From assembly GCF_004216695.1 (NCBI RefSeq), contig NZ_SGXC01000004.1, forward strand, positions 1-64,000: 64,000 nt of DNA, read 5' to 3'. The position numbers and the translations under genes are program-made. A model generated the notes under the pieces. It was not told where the DNA came from. It made no database searches and saw only the letters and a list, made by a program, of their open reading frames with translations. Position 1 is the stretch's first letter; every line of letters starts with the position of its first letter. Source of the stretch: Pigmentiphaga kullae. GTDB lineage: Bacteria > Pseudomonadota > Gammaproteobacteria > Burkholderiales > Burkholderiaceae_B. Below are positions 36,504-47,133 of this stretch, in pieces.

Positions 36504-36750
36504 CCCCCCCTACGCGCTGACGCGCGCCCCCCAGGGGGCGATGCGAGTGGACCGGCAAAGCCGGATCCACCGCATCCTGGGTCTAGTTCCTGTATCGTGA
36601 GGCCCTGGCGCTGTTGCTTCGCAGGCTGCCTGCGTTAGCACCGGCGGTACAACCCAACCAGTCCCCACTAGACCCAGGAAACCGCGGATCTGGCTTTGCC
36701 AGTCCGCTGGTTTCGCCCCCTGGGGGGCGCGCGTCAGCGCGTAGGGGGGG
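36504..36750. repeat. Large palindromic intergenic element, copy 1 (complete)
   Basis: Two 37-bp arms (36504-36540 and 36714-36750) are perfect reverse complements of each other, starting CCCCCCCTACGCGCTGACG. Inside each arm lies a hairpin: GTGGACCGGC-AAA-GCCGG-ATCCAC at 36547-36570, and GCGGA-TCTGGC-TTT-GCCAG-TCCGC on the right. CCTGGGTCTAG and CTAGACCCAGG form a third inverted pair. The middle 80 bases are unique. TTTTTTTT at 36754-36761 follows the right arm, so the element may also end ftsZ transcription. Related copies lie near 38.3, 40.0 and 46.9 kb. Confidence 0.85.
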
Positions 36751-36772
36751 ACATTTTTTTTAGGAGTCTTCC

Positions 36773-37276
36773 ATGACCATCAAAGTAGGCGATCGCGTCC
36801 CTGACGGCACCCTGACCGAGTTCATCGCCGTGGAGACCGAAGGCTGCTCGCTCGGCCCCAACGCGTTCCAGGTCGCGGATCTGGTCAAGGGCAAGAAGAT
36901 TGCCGTGTTCGCCGTGCCGGGCGCCTTCACGCCCACCTGCTCGGCCAAGCACGTGCCCAGCTACCTGCAGAACCATGACGCCCTGAAGGCCAAGGGCGTG
37001 GACGAGATCTGGTGCGTGGCCACCAACGACGCGTTCGTGATGGGGGCCTGGGCCAAGGACCAGGGCAGCCAGGGCAAGGTCCGCATGCTGGCCGACGGTT
37101 CGGCCAAGTGGACCAAGGCGCTGGGCCTGGAGTTCGACCTGACCGAGCGCGGCATGGGCGTGCGTTCGCAGCGTTATTCCATGCTGCTGGACGACGGCGC
37201 CGTCAAGGTGCTGAACGTCGAAGCCCCCGGCAAGTACGAGATCAGCGACGCGGAAACCCTGCTCAAGCAGCTGTAA
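36773..37276 (+). CDS. Peroxiredoxin, Prx5 type
   Basis: The 167-residue product reduces peroxides with a thiol. The peroxidatic Cys56 lies in VPGAFTPTCSAKHVPSYL, the signature of Prx5/type II peroxiredoxins, with KGVDEIWCVATNDAFVMGAWAKD and FDLTERGMGVRSQRYSMLLDDG following. Cys73-type partners are not obvious except the Cys of IWCVATND, common in the family. There is no fused glutaredoxin domain, so the reductant is external. AGGAG precedes the ATG, right after the palindromic element. It lies between ftsZ and lpxC. Confidence 0.93.
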   Translation: MTIKVGDRVPDGTLTEFIAVETEGCSLGPNAFQVADLVKGKKIAVFAVPGAFTPTCSAKHVPSYLQNHDALKAKGVDEIWCVATNDAFVMGAWAKDQGSQGKVRMLADGSAKWTKALGLEFDLTERGMGVRSQRYSMLLDDGAVKVLNVEAPGKYEISDAETLLKQL

Positions 37277-37289
37277 TTCCGTTTCCGGC

Positions 37290-37317
37290 ACGGCCGCGGC
37301 AGCGTGTGCGCGGCCGT
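37290..37317. terminator. Stem-loop after the peroxiredoxin gene
   Basis: ACGGCCGCG pairs with CGCGGCCGT around a 10-base loop, 14 bases after the stop codon, and outer TTCCG/CGGAA extend it. There is no T-run, so it may act with Rho or only stabilise the 3' end. Confidence 0.45.
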
Positions 37318-37359
37318 ATCGGAACCTGTGGCGGGCCACCCGCTCTAACACGGAAACGT

Positions 37360-43907: not shown

Positions 43908-44105
43908 CCCGGACCGGTCCCGGCGGGGGCGGGCGCCGCTCCCGGGCCGGGCCAGCCGCCGGGGGCGGTGGCCGGGCAGGGATGTCCATGCGGACGGGAC
44001 GCGCGATTCAAGGTCCTCCCACGGTGCTAAACTGGCTGGCTTATCCCCTATCCCGGCTGGGATGCCAGGCCACGGCCCGGCCCCGGTTGCTTGCAAATAT
44101 CGCGC

Positions 44106-46850
44106 ATGGTTTCCTCTCTGCTCAAGAAAATTTTCGGCAGCCGCAATGACCGGCTGCTGAAGCAGTACGGCAAGTTGGTCGCTCGGATCAACGCGCTGGA
44201 GTCCCAGACCGCCGCACTCAGCGACGAGCAACTCACGGCCCGCACGCAAGAGTTCAAGCAACGCTACCAGAACGGCGAAACGCTGGACGACCTGCTGCCC
44301 GAGGCCTTCGCCGTCGTCCGCGAAGGCGGCAAGCGGGTATTGGGCATGCGCCACTTCGACGTCCAGCTGCTGGGCGGGATCGTGCTGCACAGCGGCCGCA
44401 TCGCCGAAATGCGCACGGGGGAGGGCAAGACCCTCGTGGCCACGCTGCCGACCTACCTGAACGCCATCGCCGGCAAGGGCGTGCACGTGGTGACGGTCAA
44501 CGACTACCTGGCGCAGCGCGACGCGGCCTGGATGGGCCGCCTGTACAAGTTCCTGGGCCTGTCGGTGGGCGTGGTGATCTCGCAGCAGCCCAACGAGGAA
44601 AAGATCGAGGCCTACCGGGCCGACATCACCTACGGCACCAACAACGAATTCGGCTTCGACTACCTGCGCGACAACATGGAATACCGCGTGGAGGATCGCC
44701 GCCAGCGCGCGCTGTTCTACGCGGTGGTCGACGAGGTCGACTCCATCCTGATCGACGAGGCGCGCACGCCGCTGATCATCTCGGGCCAGGCCGAAGACCA
44801 TACCGAGATGTACATCCGGATGAACGCGGTGCCGCCGCTGCTGACCCGGATGGCGTCCGAGCCCAAGTCCAACGAGCCCGAGCCCGAGGGCGATTTCTGG
44901 GTGGACGAGAAAAGCCACCAGGTCTACCTGTCGGAAGCCGGCCACGAGAAGGCCGAGCAGATCCTGGAGCGCCAGGGCCTGCTGCCCGAGGGCGAGTCGC
45001 TGTACGAGCCGCGCCACATCAGCCTGATGCACCACCTGATGGCGGCGCTGCGGGCGCACAACCTGTTCTTCCGCGACCAGCACTACGTCGTGCAGAACAA
45101 CGAAGTGGTCATCGTCGACGAATTCACCGGCCGCCTGATGGTGGGCCGCCGCTGGTCCGACGGCCTGCACCAGGCGGTCGAGGCCAAGGAAGGCGTGAAG
45201 ATCCAGAACGAGAACCAGACGCTGGCCTCGATCACCTTCCAGAACTACTTCCGGATGTACGAGAAGCTGGCCGGCATGACCGGCACGGCCGATACTGAAG
45301 CCTACGAGTTCCAGGAAATCTATCGCCTGGAGACCGTGATCATGCCGACCAACCGGCCCATGATCCGCGTCGACCAGAACGACCAGGTCTTCAAGACCGA
45401 CCAGGAAAAGTACAACGCCATCCTGGAAGACATCCGTGACTGCCAGAAGCGCGGCCAGCCGGTGCTGGTGGGCACCACCAGCATCGAGAACTCCGAACTG
45501 CTGTCGGCCATGCTGGTCAAGGCCGGCCTGAAGCACGAGGTGCTCAACGCCAAGCAGCACGCGCGCGAAGCCGAGATCGTGGCCGAGGCCGGCAAGCCGG
45601 GCCACATCACCATCGCCACCAACATGGCGGGCCGCGGTACCGACATCGTGCTGGGCGGCAGCGTCGACAAGCAGGTCGACCTGATCCGCGCCGACGACGC
45701 GCTGTCCGAGACCGAGAAGGACATCCGCATCGCCCGCGTGCGCGATGAATGGAAGCCGCTGAACGAGCAGGTCAAGGCTGCCGGCGGCCTGCGCATCATC
45801 GGCACCGAGCGCCACGAATCGCGCCGTATCGACAACCAGCTGCGCGGCCGCGCCGGCCGCCAGGGCGACCCGGGGTCGTCGCGCTTCTACCTGTCGCTGG
45901 AAGATTCGCTGATGCGCATCTTCGCCGGCGACCGCGTGCGCGCCATCATGGAGCGCCTCAAGCTGCCCGAGGGCGAGCCCATCGAGGCCGGCATGGTCAC
46001 CCGCTCGATCGAGTCGGCCCAGCGCAAGGTCGAGGCCCGCAACTTCGACATCCGCAAGCAATTGCTGGAATACGACGACGTCGCCAACGACCAGCGCAAG
46101 GTCATCTACACCCAGCGCAACGAAGTCCTGGAGGCGCCCTCCATCGCCGACGTGGTCGCCAACCTGCGCGAAGCCACCTTCACCGAGACCTTCCGCGGCT
46201 ACGTGCCCGAAGACTCGGTCGAGGAACAATGGGACGTGCCGGGCCTGCAAAAGACGCTGGAGCTGGAATGGCAGGTCGAGCTGCCGCTGGCCAGCATGGT
46301 GGAAGCCGAGCCCAACCTGACCGACGACGACCTGCTCGAACGCGTCCTGAAGGCCTCGGCCGACGCCTACGACGCCAAGGTGGCGCTGGTGGGCACCGAG
46401 ATGTGGGGCCAGTTCGAGCGCTCCATCCTGCTGCAGTCCATCGACACGCACTGGCGCGAGCACCTGGCCATGCTGGATCACCTGCGCCAGGGCATCCACC
46501 TGCGCGGCTACGCCCAGAAGAATCCCAAGCAGGAATACAAGCGCGAAGCCTTCGAGCTGTTCTCCAACATGCTGGACCGCATCCGCAACGACGTCGTCAA
46601 GGTGCTGATGACCGTGCGCGTGCAGTCGGCCGAGCAGGTGGAACAGGTCGAGCAGGACGCCGCCCTGCCGCATGTGCAGAACGTGCAATACCATCACTCC
46701 GACTACGACGAGGCCCTGGCCGCCGCCAACGCGGCCGCGGGATCCGGCCAGGAGCCGGTGCGCAACGTGCTGCCCAAGGTCGGGCGCAACGATCCCTGCC
46801 CCTGCGGCAGCGGCAAGAAGTACAAGCAGTGCCACGGGAAACTCGCGTAG
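44106..46850 (+). CDS. secA: Preprotein translocase ATPase SecA
   Basis: SecA drives protein export through SecYEG. The 914-residue product has [19 protein letters not shown] (Walker A), DYLRDNM, the DEAD-type [74 protein letters not shown], and a C-terminal zinc-binding [15 protein letters not shown]. Length is normal. A TAAACT -10-like box lies at 44028-44033. The TAG stop lies inside a long hairpin next to palindromic element copy 4. Confidence 0.98.
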
Positions 46851-46875
46851 GGGGGAACCCCCTACGCGAGTTTCC
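46837..46875. repeat. 18-bp hairpin across the secA stop codon
   Basis: GGAAACTCGCGTAGGGGG (46837-46854) is the exact reverse complement of 46858-46875, with a 3-base GAA loop. The secA stop TAG is at 46848-46850 in the left arm. The GCGTAGGGGG/CCCCCTACGC part equals the tip of the arms of the neighbouring palindromic elements. There is no T-run. Confidence 0.8.
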
Positions 46876-46886
46876 TGGTAGGCCCA

Positions 46887-47133
46887 CCCCCTACCCGCTT
46901 ACGCGGGCCCCCTCAAGGGGGCGATGCGGGTGGACCGGCGGAGCCGGATCCACCGCATCCTGGGTCTAGTACCCGTTTCTTGGGGTGCGGCACCGGTGCT
47001 ATCGCTGGCTGCCAGCGGTAGCACCCCTGCTTCAGTCCAAGATGGTTTCCCTAGGCCCAGGAAACCGCGGATCTGGCTTTGCCAGTCCGCCGGTTTCGCC
47101 CCCTGGGGGGCGCGCGTCAGCGCGTAGGGGGGG
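46887..47133. repeat. Palindromic intergenic element, copy 4 (complete, diverged left arm)
   Basis: The right arm (47097-47133) is identical to that of copy 1 over 37 bp, and the right inner hairpin is nearly identical. The left arm (46887-46923) has CCCGC-TTAC-GCGGG where copies 1 and 2 have CGCGC-TGAC-GCGCG, a stem-preserving change. The left hairpin is GTGGACCGGC-GGA-GCCGG-ATCCAC. The middle section differs from copy 1 and has its own GGGGTGC/GCACCCC and CTGGCTGCCAG stems. The RidA reading frame runs through the right half. Confidence 0.85.

Follow-up and report, generated by a model that had tools for sequence, protein, structure and literature searches.

Four palindromes between core genes of Pigmentiphaga kullae belong to a genome-wide family of three-hairpin repeats that mostly abut stop codons

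The window analysed here is a stretch of 64,000 nt from Pigmentiphaga kullae (assembly GCF_004216695.1, contig NZ_SGXC01000004.1, positions 1 to 64,000 of the forward strand), in which four copies of a palindromic element lie between positions 36504 and 47133. By Pfam, the genes around the copies encode FtsZ, Redoxin/AhpC-TSA, LpxC, DciA, Peptidase M23, LysR-type, SecA, and YjgF/L-PSP-type proteins. All four copies belong to a genome-wide dispersed family of a small three-hairpin unit of about 82 nt, of which types A, B, and C are distinguished below. The copies, and the open reading frame (ORF) ends that they encode, are as follows.

36504..36750: copy 1, an inverted composite of unit A (+, 36505-36586), a middle of the ~81-nt class (36587-36667), and unit B (-, 36668-36749), as delimited by covariance model; ftsZ lies on one side and a peroxiredoxin gene on the other.
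36587..36667: the middle of copy 1, of the ~81-nt class, with a central GGCTGCC dyad flanked by CCTGGGTCTAG / CTAGACCCAGG.
38318..38447: copy 2, unit C (+, 38319-38400) and the remnant outer arm of a second unit (-, 38397-38446), directly 3' of the lpxC stop codon.
39977..40057, minus strand: copy 3, a single unit of type A, as delimited by covariance model.
39973..40057, minus strand: C-terminal tail of the LysR-type ORF, which reads into copy 3 and is encoded by it here.
46886..47133: copy 4, an inverted composite of unit A (+, 46886-46969), a middle (46970-47050), and unit B (-, 47051-47132), 3' of secA.
47032..47133, minus strand: C-terminal tail of the YjgF-type ORF, which reads into copy 4 and is encoded by it here.

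The original prediction spoke of four large elements; the palindromic family is real, but the four are only a sample of a far larger set of the 82-nt unit. Its coordinates for copies 1, 2, and 4 (36504-36750, 38318-38447, and 46887-47133) needed small corrections, while copy 3, placed at 39962-40081, is revised to 39977-40057 because of the unit boundaries given by the covariance model. Its description of the individual copies was borne out: copies 1 and 4 are complete, both being full inverted composites by sequence and by repeat search; copy 2 is a shortened composite that has lost its right hairpin, the second H3; and copy 3 is a half unit in inverse orientation, a single unit on the minus strand. 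The folding energy of copy 1, -202 kcal/mol, compares with a mean of -111.6 (standard deviation 5.4) for 200 shuffles; copy 1 is not a chance structure, because this fold is far below the shuffles and all 150 places scored in the genome match the unit model. Beside copy 4, at 46837-46875, the secA stop codon is overlapped by a small, perfect palindrome that has the sequence of the arm ends (CTCGCGTAGGGGG..CCCCCTACGCGAG) and looks like a collapsed remnant. Rfam covariance models gave nothing for 36400-36800 up to E = 1, and over the whole window only RNase P at gathering score; a class A RNase P RNA lies at 7745-8156.

Each unit runs through a C-run, three hairpins (H1, H2, and H3), and CTGGGTCTAG. 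In an alignment of 133 distinct units, the three hairpins have 98.5% of their cells paired and 359 two-sided changes, where shuffles give 130; controls in which the structure is slid along pair at 35-50%. That alignment had been fitted to the model, and a MAFFT alignment of 37 distinct units gives the same picture. The three hairpins are thus backed by strong covariation, which demonstrates them without telling DNA from RNA as the acting form. By the outer stem of H3, the 197 units of our detailed set (some 200 copies so far) divide into 74 of type A, 83 of type C, 19 of type B, and 21 other or unclassified. Several units carry a second palindromic module (core GCCCCCAGCCGCTACGCGGCAGCCCCC) inside H2 or in its place, much as though one repeat had landed in a hairpin of another. 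This module was seen in the right flank of locus L013, on contig C4 (~127.0-127.2 kb and 239.2 kb), and at L157 19936 (position 39936 on contig 27 of a metagenome-assembled genome, MAG); its exact core lies on contig C3 at 67310, 258602, 437264, and 637601 (+) and at 466612, 529008, and 603600 (-). At L239 1248-1562, the unit is contained in a tandem repeat with a period of 116 (2.7 copies, 94%), near the length of 117 listed for the Bordetella repeat Bor-1.

How far the family extends was asked with a 247-bp query and with a covariance model, R1, built from 38 aligned half units. The query found at least 95 matches in its own genome, with both strands of a place often counted and 40 of 219 candidates scored. 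R1 matched at 150 of 150 scored places in the 6.2-Mb genome (E ≤ 5.7e-12), a lower bound, since those 150 were drawn from 13,324 first-look candidates. Of the five contigs, C1 to C4 carry listed matches and C5 carries none of them. Contig C4 and C3:1-800000, together 1.135 Mb of contiguous sequence, hold 61 R1 matches, or 62 with the two parts searched apart, a few of them fragments or split at piece ends, copy 3 included; at this density the whole genome would hold roughly 335 units. A sample of the family yielded units in 22 of its 121 genomes and in 8 of its 43 genera, own genome counted. Among 20 named genomes, 8 carry units, namely MAG 67-32, Achromobacter deleyi, Bordetella genomosp. 2, B. 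ansorpii, B. genomosp. 13, Achromobacter sp. UMC46, Hylemonella gracilis, and Acidovorax sp. SUPP3334, and in the genus of Bordetella genomosp. 2 units were found in 7 of 9 genomes. The covariance-model search of the genome, Bordetella, and Achromobacter that the original prediction had proposed therefore returns a dispersed palindromic intergenic family, akin to repetitive extragenic palindromic (REP) sequences or to miniature inverted-repeat transposable elements (MITEs), as it had suspected. That the four copies arose by a duplication limited to this region is hardly credible, and we reject it given the places on C1 to C4 and the matches in relatives. Spread on plasmids or phages was likewise rejected, as copy 1 had no match in 72,556 plasmid and 50,697 phage records (E 1e-5).

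Two forms of the element exist, as the original prediction had proposed with its complete form and half unit, but the half unit is the commoner in the examined set (108 single against 78 paired units). Among 49 cases of neighbouring units at most 130 nt apart, 39 are mirror pairs with H1 outward (+,-), 6 are (-,-), 4 are (+,+), and none is (-,+). The gaps of the 39 mirror pairs fall at 34-37 nt (11 pairs), 79-81 nt (19), and 95-108 nt (8), with one at 70 nt. A common middle is found in 9 of 11 pairs of the shortest class, in 19 of 20 when the 70-nt pair, which is the exception, is counted with the 79-81 class, and in 7 of 8 of the longest, so that 35 of 39 pairs carry one of three recurrent middles; those lacking one are L176 and L196 (mutually alike), L266, and L200. 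The middle of the ~100-nt class forms a hairpin (e.g., ACGGCCTTGCAT..ATGCAAGGCCGT), A-rich on one side and T-rich on the other; it is terminator-like in 7 of 8 pairs and, from its sequence, looks like a bidirectional terminator. The two halves of a pair are of unlike type: of 33 pairs typed on both sides, 13 are A/B, 20 are A/C, and none is alike, where random re-pairing gives a mean of 12.2 alike, although these are not independent events because pairs of one class share ancestry. In MAG 67-32, seven pairs are listed, and all five that are typed on both sides are unlike. A possible explanation is the instability of perfect palindromes. A model of the 81-class middle, R2, matches 3 of 121 genomes, all of our own genus, in which 2 of 5 sampled genomes have no match; given this narrow range, the 81-class pair arose later than the unit or is confined more locally. 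The middle has also been amplified in tandem in two related genomes (L344 1-667, L345 529-1175, and L346 461-1103), with periods of 108 (6.2 and 6.0 copies) and 213 (3.0 copies) and a 97% match.

The units are mostly intergenic, as originally described, and they are also polar and mostly abut stop codons. In the contiguous sample, 59 of 62 unit centres lie outside called ORFs and 3 inside. Among the 186 units of at least 60 nt (11 of the 197 are shorter), a same-strand stop lies within 20 nt of the H1 end in 112, and an opposite-strand stop at the other end in 5. The contiguous sample gives 31 of 62 at the H1 end and 1 of 62 at the other end, where random intergenic placement gives 4.8%, and its 27 isolated units give 13 and 1. 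The C-run end mostly sits 0-12 nt behind a stop codon. The 108 single units lie between co-directional genes (65 forward and 17 reverse), convergent genes (14), divergent genes (3), or at a locus edge (9). The same rule holds in the genus of Bordetella genomosp. 2, where a same-strand stop precedes H1 by 1-12 nt in 29 of 30 loci from 7 genomes, the exception being L249, which has no called gene there. In 10 units, the TGA at the H1 loop is itself the stop codon, and the called proteins therefore end in PPTR or PPTP. The 101 stop codons next to units are TAG in 48 cases, TGA in 34, and TAA in 19, whereas 1,013 sampled genes have 237, 665, and 111, respectively. In reverse-oriented units, the G-run falls 3-7 nt before a called start codon at C4 127319-127399, C4 240914-240995, and C3 492928-493008, and could act as a ribosome-binding site.

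Such a polarity could mean that the unit is a functional RNA element of the 3' untranslated region (3'UTR), a 3'-end protector or Rho-loading block kept by selection and spread rarely, by recombination or gene conversion rather than transposition. Beyond the polarity, there are five groups of orthologous genes in the Bordetella genus whose members share a unit at their 3' end across genomes (L223/L241, L224/L234, L235/L236/L251, L231/L250, and L243/L247), and several single units are followed, by eye, by a hairpin with a U-tract. However, the sequence outside the unit is C-poor whether or not a stop codon is near: at positions -11 to -4, C makes up 7.7% for the 101 units near a stop and 7.6% for 41 units away from any called stop, compared with 28.1% where matched positions behind other genes are taken. 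In the 119 units whose CCCCCCTA end is intact, the dip reaches from about -10 to -3. We read this C-poor flank as a target preference, which could also be an RNA requirement. In addition, G.U compared with A.C cells leave no clear strand signal if a single fixed T.G pair of type C is disregarded.

Comparison with a close relative, MAG 67-32, whose aligned blocks are 92-97% identical, shows considerable turnover. Taking layout as the order, strand, and type of model matches, and empty as the lack of a match, 12 of 35 own sites have the same layout in the MAG, 13 have another, 8 are empty, and 2 are rearranged; conversely, of 15 MAG sites, 7 have the same layout in our genome, 8 another, and none is empty. 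Even among the 12, three differ clearly in length (C3:603509, C3:637657, and L302:3852). Read by eye, two convergent sites that are empty in the MAG hold an ordinary hairpin there, a short CCCC/GGGG stem at the lpxC site (copy 2) and a 42-nt palindrome at L298:1501, and the rearranged secA site has a U-tract hairpin behind secA. One pair has been inverted in place: the middle at L302:17776 agrees with the MAG at 96 of 101 positions inverted and 60 of 101 direct, and the pair also gives a 94% match on the opposite strand. Four other pair-to-pair comparisons include one in the same direction (77/81) and three that resemble replacement by another copy. Replacement fits better than a flip at C3:605879 (58 inverted, 56 direct) and at C3:644641 (67 inverted, 57 direct), so that of three apparent flips only L302:17776 is a clear inversion. 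With 8 of 35 sites empty and 13 altered at such high identity, and given the flank and strand evidence above, a 3'UTR element that rarely spreads seems to us somewhat unlikely.

What has moved the units is a separate question. REP-like repeats are commonly explained by REP-associated tyrosine transposases (RAYTs), and the original prediction suggested looking for one, having seen no transposase in the window. PF01797 (Y1/RAYT), the sole transposase family searched, was found neither in the own genome nor in four others of the genus or the near MAG (G000, G043, G073, G096, G116, and G121), while 5 of 14 control genomes are positive. It occurs in 4 of 20 genomes, namely 3 of the 16 that bear units and 1 of the 4 that do not, and no significant unit adjoins those four Y1 genes (best E = 1.5); thus, the transposase absence held up for Y1/RAYT genome-wide, and the suggested RAYT link did not. 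An ordinary RAYT-mobilised family of REP doublets forming hairpins (REPINs) or of bacterial interspersed mosaic elements is accordingly a doubtful explanation, even though inverted doublets with preferred gaps, many copies, and an extragenic position all suit it. So might GTAG, which is enriched 8.8-fold over the 14 nt just beyond the unit (33 occurrences against 5), with CTAC inside the end; the enrichment shows no established fixed position and arises partly because TAG stops are common there. MITEs are short elements with inverted ends, and the composite of ~246 bp resembles one in its paired form only, as might be produced by a DDE or serine transposase acting on terminal inverted repeats. 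Yet most examined units are single, with one such end only, no target-site duplication was seen by eye at the empty sites read, and no parent was found; the one gene read between facing units (C3:491560-493008) was rejected as a parent transposase, being citrate-synthase-like by eye, without a family search. We regard a MITE as unlikely, if a little less so than a RAYT-driven family.

The explanation that we consider probable, with moderate confidence, is a REPIN-like, non-autonomous, modular family of mobile palindromes that lives in 3'UTRs and is moved by something other than a Y1/RAYT of the present genome. It draws on the dispersal, the three-hairpin structure, the discrete pair classes, the polar placement, the C-poor flank, and the site differences between relatives; since a REPIN-like family turns over here and no RAYT was found, another mover or a recombination route should exist. 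The paired form would be the replicating entity, and a preference for targets that are poor in C and rich in AT, such as may occur at stop codons in this GC-rich genome, would place its C-run end, with copies elsewhere removed by selection. The enzyme may also have been lost. A unit behind a stop codon would belong to the 3'UTR and probably act as a structured 3' end of the mRNA; pairs of one class appear to bring a bidirectional terminator of their own. More tentatively, the family could be a mobile 3'-end cassette: a non-RAYT mover would insert it with fixed polarity beside C-poor stop tracts, giving a gene a new 3'UTR and sometimes a new stop codon and protein tail. Pairs of one class would bring along a bidirectional terminator as well, one able to flip in place between convergent genes.

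Several points weigh against mobility as we propose it. The polarity and stop-codon adjacency could stem from selection on RNA, and they rest on genes called by a home-made, unbenchmarked finder and partly on a detailed set in which 136 of 197 units come from regions picked around the best-scoring places. At the empty sites read by eye there was neither a clean pre-insertion site nor a target-site duplication, and because the flanks there differ too, insertion, deletion, and local replacement are inseparable. One empty site, that of L302:1501, retains a GTAGGGGGGGG stretch that may be a remnant, and the occupation of all 15 MAG sites in our genome, against 8 of 35 own sites empty in the MAG, fits losses in the MAG as well. 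No moving enzyme was found with PF01797, the only family searched. In a terminator scan of 36400-47300, 3 terminator-like sites were found where shuffles give 6.2, and one of the three is a weak site within copy 4, so the window copies do not stand out as intrinsic terminators.

Parts of the family may already have names, and we compare it here with excerpts of the papers cited. The Beta-proteobacterial repeat element (BRE), of ~90 bp, is known from Bordetella and Comamonadaceae (Hot et al. 2011, PMC3110155); like our unit it is usually intergenic, sometimes overlaps ORF ends by a few bases, and its number at a given locus varies between species (PMC3110155). BRE is, however, single or tandem, with at most 29 per genome and a mean of 69% GC in Bordetella, and the excerpts describe neither mirror pairs nor a stop-codon rule, a difference by description only (PMC3110155). 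At the lexA loci of nine genomes in the genus of Bordetella genomosp. 2 we found no ~90-bp tandem repeat, with L219 and L222 partial and the lexA end unlocated in L216 and L219. Bor repeats and the Bor-1 and Bor-2 families are structured intergenic repeats of Bordetella (PMC1590033, PMC2267715), Bor-1 having a length of 117 and 196(92) members in B. bronchiseptica (PMC2267715), and Bordetella repeats are counted among REP-like families without conserved terminal motifs (PMC3733652). Compared by description only, the single unit may be the already catalogued Bor-1 or BRE. Near units in at least 6 of the 30 Bordetella-genus loci (L223, L227, L232, L233, L241, and L244; by eye) there is also a separate GGTGTCTGAC..GTCAGACACC-like palindrome of ~30 nt, and this GGTGTC..GACACC palindrome may be the published 26-30-bp Bor repeat. 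In the open-licence literature, unit strings including cctgggtctagt and ggtggaccggc returned only papers unrelated by title, and we found no description of unlike-halved pairs, three middles, stop-codon polarity, a C-poor flank, or an in-place flip.

The closest architecture is that of REPINs, reportedly described by Bertels and Rainey. REPINs are likewise inverted doublets with a spacer, extragenic and of high copy number, with singlets and nested and tandem clusters (PMC3116915), and here, too, we find a high-copy extragenic palindrome with 39 inverted pairs in three spacing classes (and one outlier of 70). REP-like repeats are commonly attributed to RAYT enzymes, the subject of PMC2817692, whereas for the present family no cognate Y1 gene flanked by repeats was found in the 20 genomes tested. 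The family further differs in its 82-nt unit of three hairpins, its ~246-bp pairs of unlike halves, its alternative middles, one of them terminator-like, and its polarity towards stop codons. Through its polarity at stop codons, its C-poor flank, and its terminator-like class, the family ties mobile repeats to the ends of transcripts in a way that can be tested.

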